From Pseudomonadota bacterium (GTDB lineage: Bacteria > Pseudomonadota > Alphaproteobacteria > Sphingomonadales > Sphingomonadaceae), in the NCBI GenBank assembly GCA_023386515.1, contig JAEWJQ010000348.1, positions 1-14,348 of the forward strand: a stretch of 14,348 nt of DNA. Reading direction: 5' to 3'. Position 1 is the stretch's first letter; each line of letters starts with the position of its first letter. This document shows positions 233-14,348 of the stretch, one piece after another. The translations under genes and the position numbers were made by a program. Under the pieces are notes generated by a model. The model was not told where the DNA came from and made no database searches. It saw nothing but the letters and a program-made list of their open reading frames with translations.

Positions 233-236
233 CGCG

Positions 237-503: not shown

Positions 504-519
504 CGTCGCCCCTTTCTGC

Positions 520-876: not shown

Positions 877-1586
877 GACCGGGTCGCCGGCCACAACCGC
901 CCGACCCTCGCCGCATAGATGTCGTAACGGGTGCCGAACTGCTTGCGCATCATCGCCTCCTCGCGCGGCACGCGCAGCGTCCACATCGCCGCGAAGGCGG
1001 GGATGGCGAGCGCGCCGGCGATGACATTGTGGATCAGCAACGGCTGGATGAGCACCGCCAGCCAAATGGCGACATACATCGGATGCCGCCAGCGCGCGTA
1101 GACCCCGTCGGTGACGAGGCGATGTTCCGCGTGCAGCTCCAGTCCCGGGCTCCAGTTGCGCCCCAGATCGGCGTGGCTGCGCCAGAACAGCCACAGCGTC
1201 GGCAGCAGCATGATCGCGCCAGCGGCCGTCACCACACCGGGGAGGCGAAAATCCGCAAAGCCGAACAGCCCGGTCGCCAGGTGGAGCAGCGGCAGAACCA
1301 TCATCGTGGCGAACATGCCGAGCAGCAGCGCGCGCTCCGTGGCATCGCTACGCGCATGGACGACGGCGTTGGCGCGATTTCGTGCCGCATGCGGCAGGCG
1401 GATTGCGGTCATCGCGACGAACAGCACAAGCCAGAGCAGCCCGCCCAGGCCGATGTCCCGCCAGCGTAGCGTGGCCAGGCCTACAAGCACTGCACAGGCG
1501 GCCAACATCGCGACCGTCCCGATCCCGCTCATCATCGGCCGGCGACCGCTGGCCGGTACATGGCCCCGCTCCGCGTGATCGACCAT
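873..1586 (-). CDS. isoprenylcysteine carboxyl methyltransferase (ICMT)-like membrane protein
   Basis: A 237-residue integral membrane protein with about five hydrophobic segments (roughly residues 20-40, 48-64, 86-110, 116-136 and 170-202). The C-terminal half has the ICMT/PEMT family pattern: an RHPMYVAIWL block (HPMY at 168-171), then a conserved Glu around PREE (207-210), then FGTRYDIYAARVGRLWP near the end, the region that binds S-adenosylmethionine in the family. Bacterial members are usually annotated only as methyltransferases because there is no prenylated-protein substrate; the true substrate is unknown. The start is well supported by GGGAGG seven bases before the ATG. It is transcribed divergently from the sensor kinase gene and heads a probable three-gene operon. 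Confidence 0.85.
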   Translation of the reverse strand: MVDHAERGHVPASGRRPMMSGIGTVAMLAACAVLVGLATLRWRDIGLGGLLWLVLFVAMTAIRLPHAARNRANAVVHARSDATERALLLGMFATMMVLPLLHLATGLFGFADFRLPGVVTAAGAIMLLPTLWLFWRSHADLGRNWSPGLELHAEHRLVTDGVYARWRHPMYVAIWLAVLIQPLLIHNVIAGALAIPAFAAMWTLRVPREEAMMRKQFGTRYDIYAARVGRLWPATRS

Positions 1587-1621
1587 CGCTAGACCTCCCG
1601 TGATTGCTGCTATTGCGAGTC

Positions 1622-1634
1622 TATAGCATCTATA
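1622..1634. promoter_or_regulatory. inverted repeat between divergent genes
   Basis: TATAG-CAT-CTATA, a perfect 5+5 bp inverted repeat with a 3-base spacer, lies in the roughly 110-base region between the ICMT-like gene (minus) and the sensor kinase gene (plus). The A+T-rich arms also resemble -10 elements on both strands, so this may be a promoter, an operator, or both. No binding protein can be named. Confidence 0.35.
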
Positions 1635-1682
1635 CGCGGGCGCGGCAATCGCGATGCGTCGTGCCTTCGCCGATCGCAGCGG

Positions 1683-1688
1683 CTATAG
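1683..1688 (+). promoter_or_regulatory. possible -10 element immediately before the kinase start
   Basis: CTATAG lies seven bases before the preferred ATG at 1696, with no Shine-Dalgarno sequence between. If used as a -10 box, transcription would begin at or next to the start codon and give a leaderless message. I see no convincing -35 box at standard spacing, so this is tentative. Confidence 0.3.
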
Positions 1689-1695
1689 CGATGCC

Positions 1696-2964
1696 ATGCC
1701 CTTCGCCCCGCCCGCCCGCGCCGATGCCGCCGCGCGCAACATGCGCCAGCTGGTGCTGTTGCGCTGGCTCGCGGTCGGCGGTCAGCTTGCCGCAATCGTC
1801 ATCGTCCACGCGGGGTTCGCGATCCGGTTGCCGTTGCTGCCGATGGTGTCGGTGCTCGGCGGGCTGGTCTTCCTCAATCTCGTCACGTTGCTGCGGCTGC
1901 ACCGCTGGCCGGTGACACATGCCGAATTGTTCGGCAGCCTGCTGGTCGACGTTACCGCGCTGACCGTGCAGCTCTACCTCAGCGGCGGCGCGACCAATCC
2001 GTTCGTGTCACTCTATCTGTTGCAGGTGGTGATGGGCGCCGTGCTGCTCGACGCCTGGTCGAGCTGGGCGCTGGTCGGCGTCACCGGTGCCGCCTTCGCG
2101 CTGCTCGCCGTCGAGCACCGGCCGCTGCTGCTGCCGGACGCGTTGGCGACCAGCCTGTCGCCGGTCTATATCTTCGGCAGCTGGCTCGCCTTCGTGCTCG
2201 CCGCGGTGCTGCTGGTGCTGTTCGTCACCCGCATCGCCGCCAATCTGCGCAGCCGAGACGCCCACCTGGCGGAGATGCGCCAGCGCGCGGCGGAGGAAGA
2301 ACAGATCGTTCGCATGGGCCTGCTCGCCAGCGGCGCCGCGCACGAGCTGGGAACGCCGCTGTCGTCCATCTCCGTCCTGCTCGGCGACTGGAAGACGGAG
2401 GCCGCGATCCGCGCCGATCCGCGCCTCGCCACTGAGGTCGACGAGATGCAGGCGGAGGTGAAGCGCTGCAAGGCGATCGTCTCCGGCATCCTGTTCGCCG
2501 CGGGCGAGGTGACCGGCGAGGCGCCGGCGCGGACGACGCTGCGCCGCTTCCTGGCCGCGATCGTCACCACCTGGCCGGGCAAGGTGACGTTCGAGGACCG
2601 GCTGGGCGCCGACCGGCCGATCGTCGCCGACCGCGCACTCGCGCAGGCGCTGACCGCCCTGCTCGACAATGCGGCGGAAGCATCGGCGAACTCGATCGCG
2701 CTCGTCGCGCGCACCGCCGACGATGCGCTGGTGCTGGCGGTGCAGGACGACGGCATCGGCTATCCGGACCAGGTGCTCGAAAGCCTCGGCCGCCCCTATA
2801 ACAGCAGCAAGCCGCGCCAGGGCGCCGGCCTCGGCCTGTTCCTCGCCACCAACGTACTGCGGACGCTGGGCGGGACGCTGGAGGCGCGCAACCTGCCCGG
2901 CGGCGGCGCGGAGACGCGGCTGACGCTGCCGCTCGTCAGCCTGGCGCTGGAGGAGGACGCATGA
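1696..2964 (+). CDS. regB: RegB/PrrB/ActS-type redox-sensing histidine kinase
   Basis: A 422-residue membrane sensor kinase. The N-terminal half holds about five to six hydrophobic segments (residues 18-180) with the RegB signature GGATNPF at 97-103, the loop that in RegB binds ubiquinone. The kinase core follows: H-box AAHELGTPLSS with the phosphoacceptor His216, N-box LLDNAAEAS (Asn325), DDGIG (351-355) and GAGLGLFLA (376-384). Cys258 in EVKRCKAI sits about 42 residues after the His, close to the place of the redox-active Cys of RegB. The family autophosphorylates under reducing conditions and passes phosphate to RegA. An in-frame ATG at 1654 would add 14 residues; I prefer 1696 because the extra residues look non-native to the family and neither start has a clear ribosome site. 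It overlaps the response regulator gene by ATGA. Confidence 0.9.
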   Translation: MPFAPPARADAAARNMRQLVLLRWLAVGGQLAAIVIVHAGFAIRLPLLPMVSVLGGLVFLNLVTLLRLHRWPVTHAELFGSLLVDVTALTVQLYLSGGATNPFVSLYLLQVVMGAVLLDAWSSWALVGVTGAAFALLAVEHRPLLLPDALATSLSPVYIFGSWLAFVLAAVLLVLFVTRIAANLRSRDAHLAEMRQRAAEEEQIVRMGLLASGAAHELGTPLSSISVLLGDWKTEAAIRADPRLATEVDEMQAEVKRCKAIVSGILFAAGEVTGEAPARTTLRRFLAAIVTTWPGKVTFEDRLGADRPIVADRALAQALTALLDNAAEASANSIALVARTADDALVLAVQDDGIGYPDQVLESLGRPYNSSKPRQGAGLGLFLATNVLRTLGGTLEARNLPGGGAETRLTLPLVSLALEEDA

Positions 2965-3515
2965 CCGACATCGCGACGGATATGGCCACGGACCGGCGCC
3001 TGCTCGTCGTCGAGGACGACGCCAGCTTCGCCCGCACGCTGGCGCGCAGCTTCGAACGGCGCGGCTATCAGGTGGAGATGCTCGCCGGCCCCGACGGACT
3101 GGAACCGGCGGCGCGCGACTTTCGGCCCAGCCATGCGGTGGTCGACCTGCGCCTGGGCGGCGCGTCCGGCCTCGCCTGCGTCGCCGCGCTGCACGCGCTC
3201 GACCCGGCGATGAAGATCGTCGTGCTGACCGGCTTCGCCAGCATCGCCACCGCGGTCGAGGCGATCAAATTGGGCGCGACCAACTATCTGACCAAGCCCG
3301 CCAACACCGATGACATCGAAGCCGCCTTCGCGCGCGAGGACGGCGATGCCGCGGTCGACATCTCGGCACCGCCGACCTCGATCAAGACGCTCGAATGGGA
3401 GCATATCCACCAGACGCTGGCGGATGCCGACTTCAACATATCCGAAGCGGCGCGGCGGCTGGGCATGCACCGGCGGACGCTGGCACGGAAGCTCGACAAG
3501 CGGCACATGGGCTGA
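2961..3515 (+). CDS. regA: RegA/PrrA/ActR-type response regulator
   Basis: 184 residues: a receiver domain (about 12-125) with acidic pocket Glu18-Asp19-Asp20, phosphoacceptor Asp62 in VVDLRLG, Thr90 and Lys112 in YLTKPAN. A short linker rich in Ala/Pro leads to a Fis-type helix-turn-helix at the C-terminus (about 144-182), containing LEWEHI, ISEAARRLGMHRRTLARKL and a basic end. GFASIATAVEAIKLGATNYLTKPAN and MHRRTLxRKL are hallmark blocks of the RegA/PrrA/ActR family, global regulators of respiration, carbon and nitrogen metabolism by redox state. The start overlaps the kinase stop (ATGA at 2961-2964), with GGAGGA just upstream, so stoichiometric coupled translation with the partner kinase is expected. 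Unlike the classical arrangement in photosynthetic relatives, no SenC/PrrC gene lies between or beside the pair in this window. Confidence 0.93.
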   Translation: MTDIATDMATDRRLLVVEDDASFARTLARSFERRGYQVEMLAGPDGLEPAARDFRPSHAVVDLRLGGASGLACVAALHALDPAMKIVVLTGFASIATAVEAIKLGATNYLTKPANTDDIEAAFAREDGDAAVDISAPPTSIKTLEWEHIHQTLADADFNISEAARRLGMHRRTLARKLDKRHMG

Positions 3516-3526
3516 GCCATGAACGT

Positions 3527-3554
3527 CGTCATTCCCGGCTGCGCCCGAATGACG
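3527..3554. repeat. REP-like palindrome between convergent genes
   Basis: CGTCATTC (3527-3534) is perfectly complementary to GAATGACG (3547-3554) across a GC-rich 12-base middle. The sequence resembles the widespread GTCATTCCCG...CGGGAATGAC dispersed palindromes of proteobacterial genomes, here with an imperfect inner stem. It occupies most of the 48 bases between the stop of the response regulator gene and the stop of the converging PHA-system gene, where it could act as a transcription end in both directions. Confidence 0.55.
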
Positions 3555-3563
3555 GAACGGCGA

Positions 3564-3863
3564 TCAGCGCAGCAGCTTCGGCGCCTCCTGCTGCAGCACC
3601 TCGCGGATCTTGCCCGAGAACATCGCCAGGAACATCGGCACGTCGACGACCATGTGAACATTGTCCGCGGCGACCGTCGCACGGGTCGCCAGCGCCTGTC
3701 CCATCGCCTCCACCTTGAAATGCAGCGTGTCGCCGTCCCAGCGCTGTTCGGTGATCGAGCCGCCGGGAATCACCTTGCCGATCTTGCCGATGCCGCCGTC
3801 CAGCCGCGCCCTGGCGGCGTCCTTGCCGAGCTGGTGGGGGATGTTGACGTCGATCTGGCTCAT
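3564..3863 (-). CDS. polyhydroxyalkanoic acid system family protein
   Basis: 99 residues, [21 protein letters not shown] at the start and [21 protein letters not shown] near the end. The pattern (an opening HxLGxxxARxRL, a central GxWxGDTLxF-type strand, a closing hydrophobic VDVPxxLAMF-GKI helix) matches the small PHA-system family (PHA_gran_rgn type), found near polyhydroxyalkanoate granule genes in some bacteria; its biochemical role is poorly defined. No PHA synthase or phasin is visible here, so a granule role is only family inference. The ATG overlaps the stop of the upstream VOC-protein gene (ATGA at 3860-3863), indicating coupled expression. A longer frame continues upstream to 4598, but it runs antiphase through the VOC gene and into lnt and is not credible. 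Confidence 0.82.
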
Positions 3864-4315
3864 GCCGGTTCCTTTTCCTCTACCGCCGTCGCGAACAGCA
3901 TAGCGTCGTTGGCAAACGCCTTGAACTCGAGCGCGTTGCCCGAAGGATCGGTGAAGAACATCGTCGCCTGTTCGCCGACCTGGCCGGGAAAGCGGACGTG
4001 CGGCGGGATGCCGAAGCGGACGCCCGCCGCCTGCAGACGATCCACAAGGTCCCGCCAGTCGGCCATGGTCCGCACCACGCCGAAATGCGGTACCGGCACA
4101 TGATGACCGTCGACCGGATTGGCGACGGCGACCGGCTGCGCGGCCTGATCGAGATGCGCGACGATCTGATGGCCATAGAGGTCGAAGTCGATCCACTGGT
4201 CGCTCGACCGCCCCTCCCGGCAGCCGAGCAGCCCGCCGTAGAATGCGCGCGCCGCGGCGAGGTCGTGGACGGGAAAGGCGAGGTGAAATGGGCGCAGGGT
4301 CATAAGGGCTTGCAT
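3860..4315 (-). CDS. VOC superfamily (glyoxalase/dioxygenase-like) protein
   Basis: 151 residues with the paired beta-alpha-beta-beta-beta layout of vicinal-oxygen-chelate proteins: [23 protein letters not shown] at the N-terminus, then VPHFGVV in the middle and [16 protein letters not shown] near the end. His11, His77 and Glu130 are in the positions of metal ligands in the family, so a metal-dependent enzyme is plausible. The substrate cannot be deduced. The chosen ATG has GGAG about ten bases upstream; a second in-frame ATG at 4303 (MTLRPF) is a possible start and lies closer to the first strand of the fold. The gene is first of a two-gene minus-strand unit with the PHA-system protein and diverges from lnt across a gap of about 86 bases. 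Confidence 0.85.
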
Positions 4316-4401
4316 AGCCTATTCTCCGCGGCATCGGATAGCCTGCCCTGACACGACGAACCCCTCCCCGCCCCGACCCGGATTTGCTAGGCGCACGAGC
4401 G

Positions 4402-5931
4402 ATGACCCGCCGTCCCGCCCTTCTCGCTCTGCTGTTCGGCGCGCTCGCCGCCACCGGTTTCGCGCCGCTGCAGCTTTGGCCGCTGATGCTGGTCGGACTC
4501 GCCGGCCTGGCCTGGCTGATCCATCGAGCGCCGACGATGCGCAGCGCCGCGTGGCTCGGCTGGTGCTGGGGCCTCGGCCATTTCACCGTCAACAACAACT
4601 GGTTCCAGCACGCCTTCGACTTTCAGGACAAGATGCCGCCGGTGCTGGGCTATTTCGCCGCGGTCGGCCTCGCGCTCTACCTCGCGGTCTTCCCGATGGC
4701 GGCGGCAATGGCGACATGGCGGCTGGGTCGCCGGGAACGGCCGGACGCCGCCTTCGCACTGACCTTCGCCGCGACGTGGATCGCGACGGAATATCTCCGC
4801 TCGATATTGTTCACCGGCTATGCCTGGGACCCGGTCGGTGTCGTCTGGCTGCCGGTCATCGGCGTCGCGCGCCTTTCCGCCCTGATCGGCACCTATGCGC
4901 TGTCCGGCGTCACCGCGTTGGCCGCGGCGTCGCTGCTGTTGCTGCCGCAGCGGCGCTGGACCCTGCCGGGGCTGATCTTCGCCGCCCTGACGGTCGCGGC
5001 CATCCTCGCCCCGCTGTCGCGTGCGCCGGACGCCGCGCCGGATGCGCCGCTGCTCCATGTCGTCCAGCCCAATATCGGCCAGAATGCGCGCGGCGAGGAC
5101 GATCAGGAGGCGATGCTCGCTGCGCTTACCCGCTGGTCCGGCCGCCCGGGCCCGCGCCCACGCCTGGTGCTGTGGCCGGAAGGCGTGATGCGCGACTATC
5201 TAGAAAGCGGCTATCCCGGCTGGATCTATGACGGGCAGAGCCCGCTGTTCAACCGCTGGCGTCTGGCCCGCCTGCTCGGCCCGCGCGACATTCTGCTGAC
5301 CGGCCATACGCCGCTGCGCTTCGACAAGGCCGGCGACGTCGCGGGGGCGTCCAATTCGGTGTTCGCGCTCGACTCGCGGGCGCGGATCGTCGGCCGCTAT
5401 GACAAGGCGCATCTCGTCCCCTATGGCGAATATCTGCCGATGCCCTGGCTGCTCAAGCCGCTCGGCCTCGCCCGACTCGTGCCCGGCGACTTCGACTTCG
5501 ACAGCGGCCCCGGCCCCCGTACCCTGACCCTGCCCGGCTTCGGCGCGATCGGCTTCCAGATCTGCTACGAGATCATCTTCTCCGGCCGCGTCGTCGACGA
5601 GGCGCATCGGCCGCGGCTGATCTTCAATCCGTCAACCGATGCCTGGTTCGGCCGCTGGGGCCCGCCGCAGCATCTGGCGCAGGCGCGGATGCGCGCGATC
5701 GAGGAAGGGTTGCCGATCGTCCGCTCGACGCCGACCGGCATCTCCGCCGTCATCGTTGCCGACGGCCGCCTGCTCGCCACAGTCCCGCATGAGCATGCCG
5801 GCGCGATCGAGGTCGCGATGCCGCCAGCCCTGCCGCCGACGCCGTTCAGCCGCATCGGCAATTGGGCGGCTCTGCTCACGGCAGCGGTCTTCGCCGCGGT
5901 CGCGATTGCCATCCGCCGTCGCGCGCTATAG
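4402..5931 (+). CDS. lnt: apolipoprotein N-acyltransferase
   Basis: 509 residues, normal length for Lnt. The N-terminal part (1-205) has about six to seven membrane segments; the C-terminal part is a periplasmic nitrilase-like domain, followed by a last membrane helix (about 486-504). The catalytic triad is visible: Glu260 in LVLWPEG, Lys335 in [16 protein letters not shown] and Cys388 in [10 protein letters not shown]. The enzyme transfers an acyl chain from phospholipid to the N-terminal cysteine of lipoproteins, the last step of lipoprotein maturation in the inner membrane. An upstream in-frame TTG at 4384 would add six residues, but ATG 4402 gives the usual MTRRP-type short basic start. 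No Shine-Dalgarno is visible; a GCTAGG hexamer lies 10 bases before the ATG. metK follows after 40 bases. Confidence 0.95.
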
Positions 5932-5932
5932 T
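5906..5932 (+). promoter_or_regulatory. candidate metK promoter
   Basis: TTGCCA at 5906-5911 and TATAGT at 5927-5932 look like -35 and -10 boxes, overlapping the 3' end of lnt. The spacer of 15 bases is shorter than ideal, so the -10 is more convincing than the -35. Transcription would start about 5938-5940, inside the inverted repeat that follows. Confidence 0.4.
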
Positions 5933-5936
5933 GGTC

Positions 5937-5956
5937 ATATAAAGGCATCTTTATAT
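5937..5956. promoter_or_regulatory. metK operator: 8+8 bp inverted repeat
   Basis: ATATAAAG (5937-5944), GCAT, CTTTATAT (5949-5956): a perfect 8 bp inverted repeat that stands out as A+T-rich in GC-rich DNA. It lies directly after the -10-like hexamer and ends 15 bases before the metK ATG. The form AAAG-N4-CTTT with flanking A/T matches, as far as I recall, the sites proposed for ArsR-family SAM/SAH-responsive repressors (SahR/SamR) of methionine-cycle genes in proteobacteria. The repressor gene is not in this window. Confidence 0.65.
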
Positions 5957-5971
5957 CGTTATGAGGCAGTG

Positions 5972-7174
<1,203 letters not shown>

Positions 7175-7182
7175 TCCCGGCT

Positions 7183-7205
7183 GGCCCCGGGCAAAAGTCG
7201 GGGCC
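7183..7205 (+). other. short hairpin after metK
   Basis: GGCCCCG (7183-7189) pairs with CGGGGCC (7199-7205) across a 9-base loop, beginning eight bases after the metK stop. It has no following T run, so it is not a terminator by itself; it may stabilise the 3' end or assist the terminator just downstream. Confidence 0.4.
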
Positions 7206-7219
7206 GATGGACGCCATGC

Positions 7220-7260
7220 AAAAGACCGCCGCGGTCCACCGCGGCGGTCTTTTTCTTTTT
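7220..7260 (+). terminator. intrinsic terminator of metK
   Basis: A perfect 15 bp stem (7220-7234 with 7239-7253), loop TCCA, GC-rich core, directly followed by TTTTCTTTTT. This is a textbook Rho-independent terminator for metK. The lower strand has four A/T pairs at its end and could weakly terminate the converging PilZ-operon transcript as well. Confidence 0.93.
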
Positions 7261-7300
7261 CGTAGCTATGCCCGCCGGCAGTCTGCCGGGGACTGCGCCG

Positions 7301-7666
7301 CTACCGCCGGTAGGCGTGCCGCATCTCATCCATCCAGCCGACCTGCACGTTCGACGCGGGCGCACCCGACGACGCCGACGAGCGCGGTTTGCGCGCCGCT
7401 TCCAGATCGATCGGCTGCGCGAAATTCAGGCCCGCAAGCCGATCGGTGACCCACATCACCATCGCGGGCAGTCCTTCGAGCAGGCCCATGTCGACGACGA
7501 TGGGCATGTCGGCCTTCAATTCGCCGCGATGCTCAACACAGGCACCGGTCAGCGACAGATTGCGGACACGTTGCAGCGTCGGGCGCGACAGCCCTGGGAC
7601 GTGCAGATAGGCGCGTACAATGACGCTGCTGCGCTTCTGCCGGGGGGATTCTAGCGACTGATCCAT
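7301..7666 (-). CDS. PilZ domain protein
   Basis: 121 residues. A single PilZ-like beta-barrel fits: basic start SPRQKRSSVIVRAYLHV, then NLSLTGACV (the family's N/D-x-S-x-x-G motif at 36-41), then MVMWVTDRLAGLNFAQPID, matching the VVW...aGl.F..p ending of the fold, with a charged tail after residue 90. PilZ proteins often bind cyclic di-GMP; here the arginine motif before the barrel is R-x-x-R (9-12) rather than R-x-x-x-R, so binding is uncertain. ATG 7666 has GAGG five bases upstream; a GTG one codon earlier is too close to it. Last gene of a minus-strand cluster, 19 bases after the preceding unknown gene. Confidence 0.85.
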   Translation of the reverse strand: MDQSLESPRQKRSSVIVRAYLHVPGLSRPTLQRVRNLSLTGACVEHRGELKADMPIVVDMGLLEGLPAMVMWVTDRLAGLNFAQPIDLEAARKPRSSASSGAPASNVQVGWMDEMRHAYRR

Positions 7667-7685
7667 CACAACCTCGTTGCCGCCG

Positions 7686-8069
7686 CTATGCCGGCTGCGT
7701 AGTTACCGAACTATGAATTTCGGCAGCTAATCCGGAGGTTTCGCTCGCATGCTCGGCCGCACCGTGCGGCTTCCGCAGCGCCGCGAGAGCCGCCGCCGTC
7801 GCCCGCTCGATCATCGCGGCGGTGATCCACGACGGCAGTCCGTGCCGCGTGTCGGGACCGCCCAGCCGACGCGCCGCCACCGCCCCCACGGCGACCACGA
7901 TCTGGCTCGCCAGCATCCGTGTGCCGCCGCGCGTCAACCGCGGATTGCGCAACGCCAGTCCCTCCGCCACCGCGCCCGCCGCGGCGACCAGCATCAGCGG
8001 CTCGCGCGCAGCCTCGTGCCAGACGGCGGCGATCGGGCCGGCTTCGGCCTCCCTGGAATCATGGCTCAC
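7686..8069 (-). CDS. hypothetical protein, 127 aa, coupled to FNT channel gene
   Basis: Starts at GTG 8069, which overlaps the TGA stop of the upstream transporter gene (8066-8069). The protein has two moderately hydrophobic stretches (near PLMLVAAAGAVAEGLAL and MLASQIVVAVGAVAARR) and a polar C-terminus. I do not recognise a family; a small membrane-associated protein is possible. The frame is open further upstream to 8672, but that portion is antiphase to the transporter gene and rejected. Overlap with the transporter and a 19-base gap to the PilZ gene suggest all three are one transcript. Confidence 0.6.
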   Translation of the reverse strand: MSHDSREAEAGPIAAVWHEAAREPLMLVAAAGAVAEGLALRNPRLTRGGTRMLASQIVVAVGAVAARRLGGPDTRHGLPSWITAAMIERATAAALAALRKPHGAAEHASETSGLAAEIHSSVTTQPA

Positions 8070-8887
8070 GATCGTTTCTCCGTCATCTCGCCGCGCACCT
8101 GCGCATGCGCCAGCAACGCAAAGATCCCCGCACCGCCGATCAGATTGCCCAGCACCGCCGGCGCGATCAACCCGCCCAGCGCCTGCGCAAGGTCGATCCG
8201 CCCGGCGAACATCAGGGTGAAGGCCTCCGCCGAGCCGACCACCGAATGGCTGAAGCCGGCGATGGTCAGCGCATAGGTGAAGGCGAGAATCACCCAGAAG
8301 CTCTGCTCGCGCGCATTGGGCAGCACCCAGGCGACGATCGCGATCATGAAGCCGGCGGGAATGGCGTTGACGATCGTCCGCCCGGCCGACAATTCGGTGA
8401 TCTTGTCCGACACGGCCAGCGCCGCCTCGCGCAGCGTGGCATCGCCGATGATGCCGTGCGCGATCGCATAGCCGGCGATCGCGGTGCCGATCAGATTGGC
8501 GAACAGCACGATCCCCCACAGCCGCAGCGTCGCCATCGCCGCCCGCCCCGATGGGCGGGTGACCAGCGGCAGCATCGCGGTGATCGTGCTTTCGGTGAAC
8601 AGCTGCATGCGGCCGAGGATCACGATCAGGAAGCCGACCGGATAGCCGAGCGCCGCGATCAGCTCCCGCCATGGCGTATCGGGCAAGGCGCGATGCAGCG
8701 CCGCCTCCGCCAACAGCGAGGTGCTGATCGCGATGCCCGCCGCCAGTCCCGACCAGAATAGCGAACGGGCGGGCCGCCGCATCTCATCCTCGCCAGCCTC
8801 GCGCACGGTGCGGTGCAGTTCGCGCGCGTCCGCCGCCTTCAGATCGTCATCGTCGTCATCGCGGTCGGCGGGAGGGGGATCGGCCAT
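8066..8887 (-). CDS. formate/nitrite transporter (FNT) family membrane protein
   Basis: 273 residues. A charged N-terminus with a run of aspartates (about 9-15), then six hydrophobic segments. Family blocks: FLIVILGRMQLFTESTITAMLPL (86-108), IPAGFMIAIVAWVL, and GFSHSVVGSAEAFTLMFAG, where His214 is in the place of the pore histidine of FNT channels. FNT proteins are pentameric channels for small anions such as formate or nitrite. The LGRMQLFTE block is closer to the uncharacterised YfdC-type branch than to FocA, so the cargo is unknown. No formate or nitrite enzyme is nearby. The gene diverges from trmB across about 86 bases and heads the FNT-unknown-PilZ unit. No clear Shine-Dalgarno before ATG 8887. 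Confidence 0.85.
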   Translation of the reverse strand: MADPPPADRDDDDDDLKAADARELHRTVREAGEDEMRRPARSLFWSGLAAGIAISTSLLAEAALHRALPDTPWRELIAALGYPVGFLIVILGRMQLFTESTITAMLPLVTRPSGRAAMATLRLWGIVLFANLIGTAIAGYAIAHGIIGDATLREAALAVSDKITELSAGRTIVNAIPAGFMIAIVAWVLPNAREQSFWVILAFTYALTIAGFSHSVVGSAEAFTLMFAGRIDLAQALGGLIAPAVLGNLIGGAGIFALLAHAQVRGEMTEKRS

Positions 8888-8973
8888 GGGCGGCCAACGG
8901 GCGGCGCCACGCTTTTGCTCCGCCGGGCGCGGTGCTTTGCGCCGCGACGCGAAGCGGCTAAGGCCCCGCTCCC

Positions 8974-9654
8974 ATGAACGATCCCGTCACCATCCGCCGC
9001 CTCTACGGCCGCCGCCAGGGCCACAAGCTCCGCCAGGGCCAGGCCGCACTCGTCGAGGAGCTGTTGCCGCGTGTCAGCGTCCCCGACGACGGCGCGCTCG
9101 ACGCCGCGACGCTGTTCGGTGACGACCGTCCGCTGGAGGTGGAGATCGGCTTCGGCGCAGGCGAGCATCTCGCCGGCCAGGCGGAGGCGCGGCCCGGCAC
9201 CGGCTTCATCGGCTGCGAACCCTTCCTCAACGGCGTCGTCGGCGCGCTCGGCCATATCCGCGACCGCGACCTCGGCAACGTCCGCCTGCACATGGGCGAT
9301 GCGCTCGAGGTGCTGGAACGGCTGCCCGACGCCGGCCTGGACCGCGTCTATCTGCTCCACCCCGATCCCTGGCCCAAGGCGCGCCACGCCAAGCGGCGGA
9401 TGGTCAACCACGGCCCGCTCGACGTCATCGCCGCCAAGCTGAAGCCCGGCGCGGAATTCCGCCTCGGCACCGACGACCCGACCTATTGCCGCTGGTCGAT
9501 GATGGTGATGAACCAGCGTCGCGACTTCGTCTGGACCGCCGAAGGGCCGCAGGACATCCTCACCCGCCCCGCCGACTGGCCGGAGACCCGCTACGAGCGC
9601 AAGGCCCGCCGCCAGGGGCACGAGCTGTGGTATTTCAGGTATATCCGACAGTAG
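8974..9654 (+). CDS. trmB: tRNA (guanine(46)-N7)-methyltransferase
   Basis: 226 residues. The N-terminus has the characteristic RRLYGRRQGHKLRQGQ block. The SAM-binding motif is VEIGFGAGEHL (56-66), the acidic residue after it is in IGCEPF, and the catalytic/tRNA-binding region is LLHPDPWPKARHAKRRMV (127-144) with the closing TRYERKARRQGHELWYF (205-221). It forms m7G at position 46 of the variable loop of many tRNAs. The last residues lead directly into the mobile element, so this gene marks the chromosomal boundary. No Shine-Dalgarno is evident; GGCTAAGG lies about ten bases before the ATG. Confidence 0.96.
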   Translation: MNDPVTIRRLYGRRQGHKLRQGQAALVEELLPRVSVPDDGALDAATLFGDDRPLEVEIGFGAGEHLAGQAEARPGTGFIGCEPFLNGVVGALGHIRDRDLGNVRLHMGDALEVLERLPDAGLDRVYLLHPDPWPKARHAKRRMVNHGPLDVIAAKLKPGAEFRLGTDDPTYCRWSMMVMNQRRDFVWTAEGPQDILTRPADWPETRYERKARRQGHELWYFRYIRQ

Positions 9655-9678
9655 GCTGCGGGTTTCACGATCCGTTCA

Positions 9679-9696
9679 CGCCCTGCACAGAGGGCG
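9679..9696 (+). other. hairpin downstream of trmB
   Basis: CGCCCT (9679-9684) pairs with AGGGCG (9691-9696) over a 6-base loop, 24 bases after the trmB stop. No T run follows, so terminator function is doubtful; an inverted repeat here could also belong to the recombinase core site. Confidence 0.35.
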
Positions 9697-9699
9697 CCT

Positions 9700-9735
9700 G
9701 TTCCCGCCGTTCCCTTGCTGTTCCCTGCACTTCCC
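9700..9735. repeat. four TTCCC repeats at helical spacing before the integrase
   Basis: TTCCC occurs at 9701, 9710, 9721 and 9731, three of them as GTTCCC, at steps of 9, 11 and 10 bases, that is about one DNA turn. The array fills the space between trmB and the integrase, where arm-type recombinase sites or excisionase sites are expected. Function is inference. Confidence 0.45.
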
Positions 9736-9740
9736 GCTAC

Positions 9741-9759
9741 GGTGATTGTCAGGTGATTG
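9741..9759 (+). repeat. tandem GGTGATTG repeat before the integrase
   Basis: GGTGATTG at 9741-9748 and again at 9752-9759, start to start 11 bases, ending 15 bases before the integrase ATG. The position fits a binding site for a protein controlling the integrase or bending the attachment site. Confidence 0.4.
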
Positions 9760-9774
9760 CCAGCGAGGCTCCTG

Positions 9775-11016
9775 ATGGCGACGGGCAAGGTCAATAAGCG
9801 GACGGTCGACGCGCTGAAGCCGGGCGCTGGCGTCGACTTCCTGTGGGACGACGACCTGAAGGGCTTTGGCGTGAAGATCACGCCGGCTGGTGCCGTGGCC
9901 TACGTCTACCAATACCGGATGGGCGGTCGTGAGGCGAAGCCGCGTCGCTACACGATCGGAGCGCATGGCTCGCCTTGGACGCCGACGACCGCACGGACTG
10001 AGGCCGAGCGACTGGGGCTTCTCGTCGCCCAGGGCATCGATCCCGCCGAAGCCGACAAGAAGCGTCGCCACGAGGCTGTCAGCCTCGCCTTCAGATCCTA
10101 CGCCCAAACCTTCCATGACAGCTGCAAGGGTGACGGCTGGCGCAAGCTGGTCGAACGCTCCCTGCGGCTGCACGTCGTCCCGGTGCTTGGTAGCAAGGCG
10201 CTGCCGTCAATAACGCGCGCGGACGTGGTCGCCGTATTCGACGCGATGCCGACCGAGCAGCAGGCAGGACGTCGCAACACGTTCGCCATCCTGCGCCGGC
10301 TTTTCAAATGGGCGATCTGGCGTGGCGACCTCACTCGCTCGCCTATGGACGGCATGGAGACGCCGCCGCCGGTAAAGGCGCGTGATCGTGTGCTGAGCGA
10401 CGACGAGCTGCGGCGGGTGTGGCTGGCCGCCCCCGGTTGCCACCGATGCTTCGGCCCGATCCTCCGCCTCCTGATCGTGACCGGACAGCGGCGCGAAGAA
10501 GTCACCGGAATGGCGTGGACTGAACTGGATCGCGGCGGCGCGATGTGGCGCATCCCTGGCGAGCGCACGAAAAATAGCGAGCCGCATACCGTGCCGCTCA
10601 GCACGCTGGCCATCGAGACGATCGACAAGCTAGCCAAGGGCGAGAAGTGGCCGCGTCGAGGCGCCGTCTTCACCACGTCGAATGGCGAACCCTTCGCCGC
10701 CCATGCCAAGGGCAAGCAGAAGATGGACAAGTTGCTGGCCGCTGACGGTGGCGATCCCATTCCCGCCTGGCGTCTGCACGATCTGCGCCGCACGCTGGCC
10801 ACCGGATTCCAGGTTCTCGGCATCAGGTTTGAGGTGACCGAAGCTGTGCTGAACCACCTGTCAGGCGCACGATCTGGCGTGGCTGGCGTGTATCAGCGCC
10901 ACCATTGGACCGACGAGAAACGCACCGCGCTTCAGGCGTGGGCCGACCACATCAACCGGCTGTTAGCAGCCGGCGACAATACCAACGTGATCCCGCTCGC
11001 CGCTCGGCGGGCGTGA
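9775..11016 (+). CDS. int: tyrosine-type site-specific integrase (P4-like, DUF4102 type)
   Basis: 413 residues, full length. The N-terminal arm-binding domain (about 1-95) has the family's pattern TVDALKPG..VDFLWDDDLKGFGVKITPAG and YTIGAHG; a core-binding SAM-like domain follows (about 105-195); the catalytic domain runs from 205 on. Active-site residues are all present: Arg239 in TGQRREEV, Lys266 in GERTKNSEP, His335 and Arg338 in LHDLRRT, His361 in LNHLSG and the nucleophile Tyr373 in AGVYQRH. It should integrate and excise the element at a nearby attachment site, probably at or just after the 3' end of trmB. ATG 9775 has GAGG seven bases upstream; a TTG at 9757 is less likely. Confidence 0.95.
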   Translation: MATGKVNKRTVDALKPGAGVDFLWDDDLKGFGVKITPAGAVAYVYQYRMGGREAKPRRYTIGAHGSPWTPTTARTEAERLGLLVAQGIDPAEADKKRRHEAVSLAFRSYAQTFHDSCKGDGWRKLVERSLRLHVVPVLGSKALPSITRADVVAVFDAMPTEQQAGRRNTFAILRRLFKWAIWRGDLTRSPMDGMETPPPVKARDRVLSDDELRRVWLAAPGCHRCFGPILRLLIVTGQRREEVTGMAWTELDRGGAMWRIPGERTKNSEPHTVPLSTLAIETIDKLAKGEKWPRRGAVFTTSNGEPFAAHAKGKQKMDKLLAADGGDPIPAWRLHDLRRTLATGFQVLGIRFEVTEAVLNHLSGARSGVAGVYQRHHWTDEKRTALQAWADHINRLLAAGDNTNVIPLAARRA

Positions 11017-11045
11017 TGCTGGAGCGGCTAGGGTAGCTCCCGAAC

Positions 11046-11064
11046 GGCCGGCTTCCGCCCGGCC
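11046..11064 (+). other. GC-rich hairpin after the integrase
   Basis: GGCCGG (11046-11051) pairs with CCGGCC (11059-11064), 7-base loop, in the 87-base gap between the integrase and the next gene. There is no T run, so it is at best a weak or factor-dependent end. Confidence 0.35.
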
Positions 11065-11103
11065 TGCCGCCCCTTCAACAATGCGGACGCCTACGGAGGG
11101 CAA

Positions 11104-11769
11104 GTGGTTGCTGTATTCGTAAGCGTGCCCGAGCAGCACGCAGGAAAACCGATGTCGATCGAGGATGCCCTCCGGCGTTTGGAGGATTTGACGGCTGTGC
11201 CCACCTTTCACGATGCGTTGACCGCAAAGGGCACGTTCTCGGAGAGAGATGGGGCTTGGTTGCTCCTTAATGCTGCCCTGAAGGTCGGAGGCGTCGAAGG
11301 CTTCATCCAGGCTGAACCCGGTCAACCTTACTGCAAGATTCCGTCTGCGTATTGGGAGCGGTTTAGCACAATTGGTGGGCAGCAGGACGTCTTTCGTGAA
11401 ATGCCGGATGGAGTAGGCTACGACGAGAGGCACCTTGGCCGCCCTATAGTGATATGGGAGTCCGGCTTAGGAGATTTGATCGAGCTGATCTCGCATCTCG
11501 GCCTGATCATGAAAGACGGGCTTTCTGCCGACGATGACCAGGACGATCCTGCGATGAACGGGCCCTTTGACCGCTCATCCACATGGGGTGAGATCAGTGA
11601 GTGGTATTTGCGCTACATAGCAGACGCCCCTGACGAGGGTTATACCCGCGTCGAAGACGAGCAAGCCGCCCGGTCGCTTGGTATCGGGCGCGATCGTATT
11701 CGCGAGCTTCGAAGATCATTTAAGCCAGCCCATTGGCGTGATGGCGGCCGGCCTAAGAGCAAAAACTAG
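11104..11769 (+). CDS. unrecognised protein with a helix-turn-helix-like C-terminus, 221 aa
   Basis: Starts at GTG 11104 with a strong GGAGGG four bases upstream; an ATG at 11152 (MSIEDAL) is an alternative. The protein is soluble and acidic in the middle. It contains WLLLNAALKVGGVEGFIQ, YWERFS, a hydrophobic helix LIELISHLGLIM, and an acidic stretch DDDQDDP (144-150). The C-terminal 40 residues, VEDEQAARSLGIGRDRIRELRRSF followed by basic GGRPKSKN, look like a small helix-turn-helix, so DNA binding is possible. I do not recognise a family. Base composition is clearly less GC-rich than all genes to its left, with A/T-ending codons frequent, indicating different origin. It lies between integrase and the AlpA-like regulator, the place where satellites and islands often carry cargo. 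Confidence 0.7.
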   Translation: MVAVFVSVPEQHAGKPMSIEDALRRLEDLTAVPTFHDALTAKGTFSERDGAWLLLNAALKVGGVEGFIQAEPGQPYCKIPSAYWERFSTIGGQQDVFREMPDGVGYDERHLGRPIVIWESGLGDLIELISHLGLIMKDGLSADDDQDDPAMNGPFDRSSTWGEISEWYLRYIADAPDEGYTRVEDEQAARSLGIGRDRIRELRRSFKPAHWRDGGRPKSKN

Positions 11770-11794
11770 GCGGAAACTCCCCGAAACTAGGCGG
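11763..11794. repeat. AAACTAGGCGG direct repeats, helically phased
   Basis: The 11-mer AAACTAGGCGG occurs at 11763-11773 and 11784-11794, exactly 21 bases apart, and a third AAACT lies between them at 11774-11778, giving steps of 11 and 10. The first copy contains the stop codon of the preceding gene. The block lies about 80 bases before the AlpA-like gene and may be its operator or an excisionase site. Confidence 0.5.
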
Positions 11795-11843
11795 TTGCCA
11801 CGTTAGACTGCCAAGTTTGCGTCCTCGACATTCCCTCCGTCAC

Positions 11844-11861
11844 CCGCTCAATCCCGAGCGG
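11844..11861 (+). promoter_or_regulatory. leader hairpin before the AlpA-like gene
   Basis: CCGCTC (11844-11849) pairs with GAGCGG (11856-11861), loop AATCCC. The 3' arm abuts the Shine-Dalgarno GAGGAG (11863-11868), so folding could influence translation of the following gene. Confidence 0.35.
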
Positions 11862-11874
11862 TGAGGAGATGAAA

Positions 11875-12069
11875 ATGGAAAATCTTCTTTCGCCCGAAGA
11901 AGCCGCCCCCCGCGTGGGGGTAGCCGAGAAGACGTTGGCCAATTGGCGCGTTCTCGGCCGCGGCCCGAAGTTCATCCGCGCTGGGAGTAGGATCGCTTAC
12001 GACCCGGCCGACATCGAAGCATGGAAAGCCGATAATCGCTTCGGCTCGACGTCCGAGCAGGCTGCGTGA
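11875..12069 (+). CDS. AlpA/excisionase-type helix-turn-helix DNA-binding protein
   Basis: 64 residues from ATG 11875. The whole protein is one MerR-like winged helix-turn-helix of the kind found in AlpA regulators and excisionases: LLSPEEAAPRVGVAEKTLANWRVLGRGPKF, then the wing strand IRAGSRIAYDPADIEAWKAD. Such proteins activate or repress integrase, direct excision, or switch on the replication genes of P4-like and PICI satellites. GAGGAG (11863-11868) is at good spacing for ATG 11875; the ATG at 11869, giving two more residues, is only two bases from GAGG and less suitable but cannot be excluded. It stands in front of the small-gene cluster and primase, consistent with control of that transcript. 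Confidence 0.88.
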   Translation: MENLLSPEEAAPRVGVAEKTLANWRVLGRGPKFIRAGSRIAYDPADIEAWKADNRFGSTSEQAA

Positions 12070-12072
12070 GCA

Positions 12073-12279
12073 ATGCCGTCCGCATCGGCAGGGGCGCCGA
12101 AGCCCTGTAAGAGAAAGGGCCGGACTGTGGCGGTCCGACCCTTCCAGAACTTTCACAGCATCAGCACCAACGGAGATAGCGCGTCCGCTCTTCGCCTGCA
12201 ACGCCTGCTCGCGTTCGGCATCACAGGATCGCGAGCAGCGCTGATCGCGACGATGGTGTGGGAGGTGGCCAATGGTTGA
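12073..12279 (+). CDS. small hypothetical protein, 68 aa
   Basis: Begins three bases after the stop of the AlpA-like gene. N-terminus is Pro/Lys-rich; the C-terminal half, ALRLQRLLAFGITGSRAALIATMVWEVA, is a clear pair of helices of the type seen in short proteins of integrated elements, so this part is probably genuinely coded. The start is uncertain: ATG 12073 has no good ribosome site, whereas GTG 12127, with AAAGGG seven bases upstream, would give a 50-residue protein keeping the helical part. A strong imperfect hairpin (12115-12143) covers this GTG. The stop overlaps the next start by eight bases. Function unknown. Confidence 0.5.
   Translation: MPSASAGAPKPCKRKGRTVAVRPFQNFHSISTNGDSASALRLQRLLAFGITGSRAALIATMVWEVANG
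12115..12143. other. strong imperfect hairpin inside or before a small gene
   Basis: AAGGGCCGGAC (12115-12125) pairs with GTCCGACCCTT (12133-12143), ten of eleven positions, 7-base loop TGTGGCG that holds a possible GTG start. Read on the minus strand the stem is followed by CTCTTACAGG rather than a clean T run. It may hide a ribosome site or be an old repeat. Confidence 0.45.
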
Positions 12280-12469
12280 TCTCCGCACCGTCGCCTTGGC
12301 GCTGCTCAACGCAGACCCCGCAACCGTGCGGCTGAGCCGCCGCGCTGGATCGTTCCTCGGCCAGTGCGTGGCAGATCCGCTGCCGCTGACCGACAAGCAG
12401 GCGGAATGGCTCGCCTCCTTGCTCAACCGCGCCGGCCTGTCGGCGCTGAACAGCGGGGGTGAGGCATGA
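12272..12469 (+). CDS. small hypothetical protein, 65 aa
   Basis: ATG 12272 has an excellent GGAGG six bases upstream and overlaps the previous gene by eight bases. The protein is a mix of short amphipathic helices: VDLRTVALALLNADPATVRLSRRAGSFLGQ and LPLTDKQAEWLASLLNRAGL. The part FLGQCVAD-LTDKQAEWLASLLNRAGL resembles a pattern frequent in small genes beside phage-type primases in alphaproteobacteria, but I cannot name a family. Its stop overlaps the next start as ATGA (12466-12469). Function unknown; the context suggests an accessory role in replication or its control. Confidence 0.68.
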   Translation: MVDLRTVALALLNADPATVRLSRRAGSFLGQCVADPLPLTDKQAEWLASLLNRAGLSALNSGGEA

Positions 12470-12978
12470 CCAAGCGCAAAACCGATACGAGCTCGGCGGC
12501 CTTCAACGGCATCATCAAGAAGTCCGAGCGGCTGCGCGCCGTGGTGTACCGGACGTTGTACGATCATCCGCAGGGGCTGACCGTCGACGAGACGTGCTCC
12601 GCTGCTCGATACCCGCGCTACAGCCTCCAGCCCCGCTTCACCGAGCTGCGCGACAAGAACCTCATCGAGGACACGGGTCTGCGTCGTCGGAACAACAGCG
12701 GCGCGAAAGCCATCGTATGGCGGCTGTCGATGTATGCGCAGGGTGCAAAGCAGCCCGAAGATGGTGGCACCAAGATCGTCATCTCCGACGGCCTTATCGG
12801 CTGGCACGTGTGGGAGCAGACCGCCGAAGGCGACATGCGCCACGCCATGTTCTTCGACAACCGGCGTTGGGCGGGCGATTACGCCTTCGGCCTGCACATC
12901 GGCTCCTCCTACCGTCACCCCATCGTCGATCAGTCGACCGATTATCCGATCACCCGCTTTCAGGAGGAGGTGGAATGA
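12466..12978 (+). CDS. hypothetical protein with winged-helix-like N-terminus, 170 aa
   Basis: Coupled to the preceding gene by ATGA and to the following by ATGA. The first 90 residues read like a winged helix: ERLRAVVYRTLYDHPQGLTVDET (helix 1 and turn), a recognition-helix-like PRYSLQPRFTELRDKNLIE, then a basic wing TGLRRRNNSGAKAIVWRL. Comparable domains are common in element-encoded regulators. The rest (about 100-170) has GWHVWEQTAEGDMRHAMFFDN and FGLHIGSSYRHP and looks like a small beta-rich domain I do not recognise. A DNA-binding regulator or replication accessory protein is plausible but unproven. Confidence 0.72.
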   Translation: MTKRKTDTSSAAFNGIIKKSERLRAVVYRTLYDHPQGLTVDETCSAARYPRYSLQPRFTELRDKNLIEDTGLRRRNNSGAKAIVWRLSMYAQGAKQPEDGGTKIVISDGLIGWHVWEQTAEGDMRHAMFFDNRRWAGDYAFGLHIGSSYRHPIVDQSTDYPITRFQEEVE

Positions 12979-13577
12979 GCAATCAAACGGCGAATCCTCC
13001 TCGCCTGGTCGTATTGCGCCAGGTCGAAGGCCCGAAATGGTGTGTGGTCGAGCACATGCTCGAGAACGGCAAACGCCAGTTCGCTTCGCGCATCGCGACA
13101 TCGCGTGATTATGCGAGCGCGGCCCAGATTGCTATGCGAGCAGCGGATGGCAAACGCTTGCCGCTCGTGATCGAGGCCAGCGGACGGCTGCCGCGGCGGT
13201 TTGATCCAGCGCGGGGACATTCCCGCGCCGCAGGTCAACGCCTCCTCGGCTTTTTCCAACGTCTACGATCGGGAGGGCGGACAATGACCGCTTGTATCCT
13301 GCCGCTGCGCCGCCCCCTCCCCACCCTGCCGTTCCGCGGCACCGTCGTGGTAATGGGCAGCAAGGAAACCGGCTTCCAAGTCGGGCACGAAAGCTCGTCC
13401 GGCAATAGCTGGGGACACTTCTCCGGCCCGTATCCGAATGGCGTCGACGCTATCGCCGCCGCCTTCGCGCTGAACCGCGACGTCTACATGGGCGGCTGCG
13501 ATGTCGAGATCTGCGACAGTGCGCTGGCCGACCAGAAGGCCAATGCCAAACCGAAGGGAGGACGTGATGAGTTCTGA
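12975..13577 (+). CDS. hypothetical protein, 200 aa; possibly two joined reading frames
   Basis: ATG 12975 overlaps the previous stop and has GGAGGAGG five bases upstream. The N-terminal part (1-100) starts MSNQTANPPRLVVLRQVEGPKW and has a short beta-rich look, ending in a basic stretch RRFDPARGHSRAAGQRLLGFFQRLR. From residue 104 on, MTACILPLRRPLPTLPFRG starts what looks like a second independent small protein of 97 residues, with its own GGGAGGG and ATG at 13284. The frame is continuous, so either one fused protein is made or two proteins start separately. No family recognised for either part. The stop overlaps the primase start by 11 bases. Confidence 0.6.
   Translation: MSNQTANPPRLVVLRQVEGPKWCVVEHMLENGKRQFASRIATSRDYASAAQIAMRAADGKRLPLVIEASGRLPRRFDPARGHSRAAGQRLLGFFQRLRSGGRTMTACILPLRRPLPTLPFRGTVVVMGSKETGFQVGHESSSGNSWGHFSGPYPNGVDAIAAAFALNRDVYMGGCDVEICDSALADQKANAKPKGGRDEF
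13271..13286 (+). promoter_or_regulatory. internal ribosome binding site and alternative start
   Basis: GGGAGGG (13271-13277) lies six bases before an in-frame ATG (13284-13286), within the 200-codon frame. The site is as strong as those of the true starts around it, so a separate 97-residue product (13284-13577) is likely. Confidence 0.5.
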
Positions 13578-14348
13578 TCCGTTTTCCCTTCACGGCCGCC
13601 GCAGCCGCCGGATTGACGATGCCGAGCTGTCCCGCATCGTTGCCAGCATTCAGGATCGATTCCCGCTGTCGGGCGTCGCTGCCAGGGCAGGCGTGAAGCT
13701 GCAGCGCGCCGGGCGGGAGTGGAAGGCATGTTGCCCGTTCCACCCCGACCGAACCCCGTCCTTTACGATCTACGCCGATGATCGCCGGGCGCATTGCTTC
13801 GGCTGTGGCTGGTCGGGCGATGTGCTCGACTTCGTGAAGCAGGCCTATGGCGTGAAGCTGTTGCCGGCGATCGAAATGCTGGACGGCGGCGCATTGCGCG
13901 AGCTGGAACAGCAACGCACGCCGGCGAAGCCCAAGGCTGATCTCCGGCGAGTGGCGCAGCGCATTGTGGATGGCTCGTCGTCGATCGAGGGGACGCCCGC
14001 CGCGGTGTATCTGCGCTCGCGCGGCATCACCATGGATCCGCCGCATACGCTGCGCTTCGCCCGCATTGCGCCGCCGCAGATTGAGGGCAACGGGTTGGTC
14101 GCTGCCAACGGCACCGATCCACTCCCGGCGCTGATCGCGATCGTCACGGACGCCGCTGGTCAGCTTGTCGGGCTCCAGCGCACCTATCTGACCGAGAAGG
14201 GTGAGAAGGCGGCAACGAAGCCCACTGACAAGGACCGCAAACCCAAGGTGAAATACAGCCTCGGCAACGTCGTCGGCGGCGCCATCCAACTCGGGCCGCC
14301 GGCTGCCAGCATGATAGTCACCGAAGGCCGGGAGGACGGGCTGCCGCT
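13567..14348 (+). CDS. CHC2 zinc-finger primase, N-terminal part, cut by window edge
   Basis: Opens at ATG 13567 with GGGAGG five bases upstream and stays open for 260 codons to the edge. The zinc finger is complete: C56-x2-H59 in CCPFHPDRTPSF and C77-x2-C80 in HCFGCGWSGD, followed by a helix VLDFVKQAYG, as in DnaG and phage primases. A helical linker (105-150) leads to YLRSRGI, a block usual before the Toprim part of phage/plasmid primases. At the edge, ASMIVTEGREDGLP looks like the first Toprim motif with the catalytic Glu (EGxxD), so the catalytic core begins here. It would make RNA primers for replication of the element. Whether a helicase is fused behind, as in P4 alpha, lies outside the window. 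Confidence 0.92.
   Translation, partial: MSSDPFSLHGRRSRRIDDAELSRIVASIQDRFPLSGVAARAGVKLQRAGREWKACCPFHPDRTPSFTIYADDRRAHCFGCGWSGDVLDFVKQAYGVKLLPAIEMLDGGALRELEQQRTPAKPKADLRRVAQRIVDGSSSIEGTPAAVYLRSRGITMDPPHTLRFARIAPPQIEGNGLVAANGTDPLPALIAIVTDAAGQLVGLQRTYLTEKGEKAATKPTDKDRKPKVKYSLGNVVGGAIQLGPPAASMIVTEGREDGLP

Follow-up and report, generated by a model that had tools for sequence, protein, structure and literature searches.

The window analysed here, a 14,348-nt stretch of contig JAEWJQ010000348.1 (assembly GCA_023386515.1), carries at 9626–14348 an element inserted in the 3′ end of trmB, the host gene for tRNA (guanine-N7)-methyltransferase, of which the leftmost 4.7 kb are in view. We consider it probable that this stretch belongs to an integrated phage satellite whose family would be induced by a helper phage, form chimeric particles and control alpA through a repeat-binding protein. 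The element is satellite-like, because its scanned relatives gave no terminase, portal or capsid while podoviral loci do give head proteins, but it is neither P4 nor a canonical phage-inducible chromosomal island (PICI), its kind being larger and equipped with partial virion genes. As the right end lies outside the window, the argument is built on relatives, which are referred to by genome (G) and locus (L) handles.

Integration at trmB and the gene order of the left end

The host belongs to Sphingomonas and has S. beigongshangi as a near relative. Its trmB (8974–9654, + strand; PF02390, E 4e-37) is 91% identical to that of S. beigongshangi, and most of window 1–9636 aligns to a single stretch of that genome in pieces of 80–86% DNA identity. 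The S. beigongshangi site is empty, and its DNA similarity to the window ends at 9636, inside the trmB 3′ end. The trmB reading frame stays open through the attachment core at 9626–9636, and beyond 9636 the element seems to provide the final codons. The left attachment site (attL, 9626–9649, + strand) consists of this core, TGTGGTATTTC, and a conserved extension, with right-end copies in six related trmB elements. All genes in this left part of the element lie on the + strand, and the G+C content is 0.688 before 9626 and 0.638 after it.

The element sits in the 3′ end of trmB with a trmB-type integrase and a replication module, and attachment repeats close six of its relatives. The tyrosine integrase (9757–11016) starts with TTG, with an in-frame ATG at 9775; it matches PF00589 (Phage_integrase) and PF13356 (Arm-DNA-bind_3) above the cut-off, the central domain PF22022 below it, and phrog_1 at E 9e-48. 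A search of 295 genomes of S. beigongshangi's genus at E 1e-100 or better gave 29 places in 26 genomes. We fetched 20 of the 29, and in 19 of these (the exception is L140) trmB lies directly upstream in the same direction, marking this as an integrase family found at trmB; viral contigs gave no match to the integrase. In six elements T(G/C)TGGTATTTC is repeated at the right end with a trmB-like end behind it, which closes them at 21,764 bp (G104), 22,210 (G090), 34,070 (G152), 22,094 (G126), 24,043 (G042) and 6,307 (G247). The core is identical over 11–24 bp in five of them and has one base changed in G126. In the other trmB islands a convincing right repeat was not found within the stretch searched. 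Eleven other fetched islands have neither an AlpA match nor a primase of this family in view, so the trmB site serves other elements too. The earlier note on this DNA had predicted a direct repeat of sequence from 9640–9774; matching repeats do exist, as attL and right-site (attR) pairs in the six relatives, but the core lies inside trmB and outside that interval. Towards attR, all six elements carry a protein of about 135–245 aa, with homologues also in the G230, G282 and G114 elements; the G104 copy has no Pfam or PHROG match.

Downstream of the integrase come a variable gene (11104–11769), an AlpA-type regulator/excisionase (11869–12069; HTH_17 PF12728, E 1e-6; phrog_66), four small open reading frames (ORFs) and a CHC2 primase truncated by the window end (13567–14348; PF01807, E 1e-20; DUF7146, PF23639). 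From alpA through the small ORFs to the primase the spacings are +3, −8, −4, −4 and −11 nt. The 68-aa (12073–12279) and 65-aa (12272–12469) ORFs are conserved in position and have homologues in trmB elements and in relatives found by the primase. The 170-aa ORF (12466–12978), also with homologues in relatives, matches phrog_1123 (E 2e-16), a family of unknown function. The 200-aa ORF (12975–13577) has as its counterpart in S. beigongshangi (L001, 9464–10011) two ORFs that overlap, and is possibly a fusion. Other elements hold relatives of all four in unchanged order, as would not be expected of chance ORFs. An integrase, AlpA, small-gene and primase order at the trmB end of a sphingomonad genome had been read earlier from the letters alone, and the window, its relatives and the 91% trmB identity bear this out, with gene positions and single direction as then placed; the remark that the small genes match no family was nearly right, the 170-aa ORF with its PHROG match being the exception. 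ARAGORN found no tRNA gene in the window, and a promoter and terminator pattern scan gave nothing clearly above chance.

The replication module has a history of its own. The primase fragment is 95% identical to a primase of S. beigongshangi that stands behind another integrase (26% identity to that of the window) and not at trmB. Window 13276–14346 has 89% DNA identity to that S. beigongshangi element, and the match starts at 13276, inside the 200-aa ORF, a position that is likely a recombination joint. Replication modules therefore seem to move between elements. The S. beigongshangi element continues from its primase (350 aa from the likely ATG, 361 aa open) into a separate AAA_25 helicase and, further on, a DUF5681 protein and a homologue of P22 gp7 (PF25688, E 3e-10; phrog_598). 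In the trmB elements G104 and G090 one 700-aa primase-helicase replaces the separate primase and helicase, so the fused helicase for which the earlier note wanted the primase searched is found in these two and not in the closest primase relative. A second related element of S. beigongshangi (G001:C18, L209) has a primase (47%) at C18:282013 and a partial ejection-protein match at C18:271323.

Delivery and head genes of the relatives

In many relatives the part downstream of the primase carries homologues of DNA-delivery genes. In G042 the gp7 homologue (phrog_598, 245 aa) is followed by proteins of 308 and 918 aa. Over about half of its residues the 918-aa protein is 30% identical to its counterpart in Pseudanabaena phage Pan3, and the trio is close in size to Pan3's three annotated ejection proteins (275, 280 and 946 aa). 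G104, G090 and G126 have a large protein related to that of G042 (phrog_5880 in G104 and G126). G152 has tape-measure, tail-completion and tail-tube matches instead of ejection proteins.

By tblastn, home-made profiles and PHROGs we took a census of the 33 elements with at least 10 kb visible after the primase, leaving aside the window and eleven shorter or primase-less loci. Ejection-protein homologues occur in 15 (G104, G090, G126, G042, G001, L006, G025, L214, L217, L218, L225, L226, L233, G282 and G230), a tape measure in seven (G152, G238, G114, L215, L220, L224 and L231) and other large proteins in two (L221, tail-fibre family; L228, unknown), and no element has both an ejection and a tape-measure match. 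Some of these assignments rest on one member of a set, and for G104, G090 and L214 the link runs through the G126 protein. G025 and G238 came to light in searches with the delivery proteins themselves; without these two elements the counts for ejection, tape measure, other and neither are 14, 6, 2 and 9 of 31.

Head and packaging genes were sought with PHROG scans (E 0.001, all matched families listed) of four trmB elements, covering 33 of 36 predicted genes in G042, 27 of 30 in G126, 20 of 27 in G104 (four more G104 proteins separately) and 40 of 57 in G152, where int, primase and helicase are among the 17 genes outside the scan. No terminase, portal or capsid was found among these 120 of 150 predicted genes. 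As a control we scanned 55 proteins from four Sphingomonas podoviral loci found through the 918-aa protein; 25 of the 72 matched families were listed, and they include at least four major head, four head-closure, four DNA-ejection, three head-tail adaptor and three endolysin-family matches. A major head, a head-closure and an adaptor protein are present in every one of the control loci, which resemble podoviral prophages and make candidate helpers. Profiles of the control major head, head-closure, adaptor and portal proteins, which represent podoviral types only, had no match among ORFs of at least 150 aa in the element loci.

The search extends to 17 further loci. Of their 127 ORFs with 150 aa or more, 90 were scanned together with three smaller ones, and these 93 proteins matched mostly tape-measure families among the 25 of 97 families listed. 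A subset of 61 of these proteins from 16 loci, without the large slot proteins and some others, matched 24 families at E 1e-6, none of them terminase, portal or capsid; single matches were to tail-fibre, baseplate-hub, internal-virion and tail-completion families. A mixed scan of L196, L199, L201 and L206 (25 of 59 families listed) gave at least one head-closure match, which profiles place in L199; this locus is outside the set regarded as satellites. The earlier expectation that the element would lack a full head and tail set stands for terminase, portal and capsid among the scanned proteins of relatives; many relatives do carry ejection or tape-measure genes.

We propose that a helper phage would switch on alpA, that the element would then excise and replicate, and that its DNA would be packed into helper heads. 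By analogy with the tails of the PLEs (phage-inducible chromosomal island-like elements), many family members may form chimeric particles, with DNA-delivery parts of the satellite in place of those of the helper. The part supplied would be P22-type ejection proteins with a short-tailed helper, or a tape measure and tail-completion proteins with a long-tailed one. What hints most strongly at such a swap is that delivery parts of the long-tail and of the short-tail type occupy one and the same slot.

Several observations pull the other way. Nine of the 33 census elements have neither an ejection nor a tape-measure match, one protein of G126 and G104 matches an endolysin family (E 3e-7), and relatives of a MobV-type relaxase occur in seven of the 295 genomes (G104, G090, G126, G230, G238, G282 and G120). 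The DUF5681 protein found no support as a terminase small subunit: its AlphaFold2 model (predicted local distance difference test score, pLDDT, 78) had no PDB match below E 0.001, no sequence match fell below E 0.7, and its best named viral models are DUF5681 or uncharacterised; a DUF5681 protein was detected among the virion proteins of a Salmonella phage (PMC8954984). The ejection protein gp44 of phage 80alpha is described as needed by the phage but not for transduction of the Staphylococcus aureus pathogenicity island SaPI (PMC7290940), so satellites need not depend on ejection proteins. Finally, the fecal 'Bacteriophage sp.' contigs MT836812 (L153) and MT837765 (L235) were considered as proof of packaging and rejected. 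These unverified records from human fecal samples (MT836812.1 and MT837765.1) are pieces of a trmB-integrated Sphingomonas-type island, and MT837765 opens within the chromosomal end of trmB, which marks it as integrated DNA and leaves it without value as a sign of packaging. The two are only likely to come from the DNase-treated particle study PMC8361208, as neither its text nor its protocol paper holds such an accession.

Incomplete virion genes and an endolysin-family match would also be left by a decaying prophage that had lost its head and packaging genes and kept tail or ejection fragments, and the 6.3-kb G247 element at trmB, with neither an alpA nor a primase match, indeed looks like a remnant. 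For the family as a whole we regard such decay as unlikely: the incomplete sets are alike in many genomes and consist of long open ORFs, ejection and tape-measure sets stay apart (15 and 7 of 33), and three scans of four trmB elements gave no head gene.

Slightly less credible again is an integrative mobilizable element whose relaxase rides conjugative systems and whose phage-like genes are cargo. The MobV-type relaxase has a Mob_Pre match (PF01076, E 3e-11) in G104 (L124, 15085–16242), homologues in G090 and G126 and a stretch, HLDEYTPHIH, that fits the relaxase motif; the relaxase genes for which the earlier note asked are thus found in some relatives. It was found, however, in only six of the 33 census elements and in neither G042 nor G152 (the view of many loci stops 14 kb past the primase, and copies may escape for that reason), and the int–alpA–primase order together with ejection or tape-measure genes points to phage particles. 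The relaxase, which in the elements that were read is encoded on the opposite strand beyond the ejection or tape-measure slot, might allow transfer by a second route. That this genome holds a complete prophage, satellite-like at its left end only, is very improbable even though the window stops 4.7 kb into the element and inside the primase, as no head protein was found among the scanned proteins of G104 and G152, which are close by integrase, nor any profile match (podoviral head types only) in the loci of G090 and of the closest primase relative.

Other cargo recurs among these elements. A VOC-family (glyoxalase-like) gene is found in the G104, G152, L216 and L224 elements, in L236 and on the S. 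parapaucimobilis plasmids NZ_CP155753 and NZ_CP155750. An SRAP-like (HMCES) ORF in G126, G152, G042, L216, L217, L224, L227 and L229 and UmuDC-like genes in G152 and L219 were named by reading the sequences and not by family search.

The variable gene and the repeats before alpA

The satellite reading includes a regulatory proposal for the gene between int and alpA. In the window this is a 221-aa ORF, a candidate DNA-binding regulator with no family match in Pfam or PHROGs and a single database relative (99% over 67%), and hence a near-orphan; its predicted fold, at pLDDT 39, was not used. Two copies of AAACTAGGCGG, 21 bp apart (11763–11773 and 11784–11794, + strand), stand at the end of this gene and before alpA and form a candidate operator at 11763–11794. 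Not one of 500 dinucleotide shuffles gave as high a direct-repeat score (p 0.002; p 0.005 in a separate run).

We compared 30 elements, the window included, that have a usable ORF between int and alpA. The repeat test left out L216 and L223 (ORF AlpA-like or junk), L008 and L226 (no such ORF) and elements without a located integrase. The variable gene starts with a 4-nt overlap with int in 11 of the 30, while the window has a gap of 87 nt. Within a repeat region that runs from 13 bases before the variable-gene stop to 60 after it, direct repeats reach p below 0.05 against dinucleotide shuffles in 11 of the 30, with 1.5 expected. For this region we found a mean similarity of 17.0 for the nine pairs whose C-terminal 75 residues are homologous and 6.3 for the 426 other pairs (permutation p 0.0002); with 42 bases after the stop the values are 14.2 and 5.6. 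Fourteen pairs with N-terminal homology only have repeat similarities of 5–10. The C-terminal domain of the variable gene thus appears to covary with the repeats just upstream of alpA.

Individual elements illustrate this. L015, from Croceicoccus, has its domain and TTGATC repeats in common with Sphingomonas elements that bear a different integrase. The integrase of L235 is 97% identical to that of G090, yet its variable gene is of the G152 type (58%) and so are its repeats. G090 and G126 have the N-terminal part in common (46%) and differ in C-terminal part and repeats. The window's AlpA is 89% identical to that of G090, and gene and repeats differ.

Other cases speak against covariation. L112 and L228 are homologous with dissimilar repeats, L214 and L229 share only the conserved leader, and G042 and L215 have similar repeats without detectable C-terminal homology; the G152 repeats resemble those of G104 and G126, with weak domain similarity (hhalign probability 36%). 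Moreover, the C-terminal domain families are few (two or three) and related, so the p-value overstates independence.

The product of the int–alpA gene may be a regulator whose C-terminal domain would bind the tandem repeats just upstream of alpA, and gene and repeats together would make a swappable cassette resembling a phage immunity region. We put forward only tentatively, as somewhat short of an even chance, the fuller proposal: that these satellites bring their own DNA delivery as a tape measure or an ejection set and may in this way pass superinfection exclusion directed against the ejection proteins of the helper, and that induction is gated by a heteroimmunity-like cassette of gene and repeats swapped as a unit.

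Comparison with known satellites and phages

The P4-like or canonical PICI identity first suggested for this element is not supported, given the size, the ejection or tape-measure genes and the occasional relaxases of its relatives. P4-like satellites are recognised by a fused primase-helicase, alpha, and by psu, sid, delta and epsilon. No PHROG match in the scanned relatives is named as a P4 capsid gene, though many PHROGs are unnamed. Gram-negative PICIs (EcCICFT073 and kin), as presented in PMC6092414, are alike in having integrase, AlpA and replication module in conserved order and in that no capsid or terminase was detected in our scanned relatives. PICIs typically measure about 12–15 kb, lack structural and lytic genes and sit at att sites that prophages never use, whereas the closed relatives here measure 21.8, 22.1, 22.2, 24.0 and 34.1 kb (one 6.3 kb), and many relatives have ejection or tape-measure genes, with one endolysin-family match; five of the six closed elements exceed the earlier size estimate of 10–15 kb. 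The variable gene with repeats before alpA is a further difference from PICIs as that account gives them.

The closest likeness in gene order is to the phage-inducible chromosomal minimalist islands (PICMIs) of Vibrionaceae, which, as described in PMC10803314, have int, a variable gene adjoining or overlapping int, alpA and primase in the same order. In that description a 4-nt overlap with int is the commonest arrangement of the variable gene iolg, which is needed for excision, and iolg and icg, whose position the variable gene here occupies, fall into 13 families of unknown function. The PICMI prototype, at 6.1 kb, has no packaging genes according to its authors, and PICMIs in general are about 6 kb and free of particle-remodelling genes, while the elements here continue into a long downstream part, in many of them with virion genes. 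The covarying gene and repeats offer a direct test of two points open for PICMIs, the role of the iolg-type gene and the way a helper switches on alpA.

Several of the relatives resemble P22-type podoviruses in their delivery genes. P22 gp7, gp16 and gp20 form a conduit through the cell envelope, hybrid P22 virions take in foreign ejection proteins, and ejection-protein mutants or hybrids escape SieA exclusion at least partly, as set out in PMC10883804. The likeness lies in the gp7 homologues of S. beigongshangi (PF25688) and G042 (phrog_598), and in the two larger proteins that come after it in G042; the difference is that the analysis detected neither head nor portal nor tailspike genes alongside the gp7 homologue. 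Among the matches listed, the open-access literature on satellites, Sphingomonas, Alphaproteobacteria, ejection proteins and tape measures holds no satellite with ejection proteins of its own.

PLE satellites, as reported in PMC12987554, carry their own tape measure beside tail-assembly genes and take other virion genes from the phage. Their tape measure enters chimeric tails, and when it was deleted transduction of three PLE variants fell by 96%, 99% and about 99.9%; the same account notes tmp genes in some capsid-forming PICIs (cf-PICIs). The family described here differs in having a second type with P22-type ejection proteins; no homology to PLEs was seen, and none was looked for. The rewiring of tails by a satellite was shown only recently, for PLEs. 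If the slot for a tape measure or ejection set is what we propose, satellites would commonly swap the part of the particle that takes DNA through the cell envelope. Satellites with a tape measure were already known from PLEs and cf-PICIs, and a P22-type ejection set in a satellite would be the new part.

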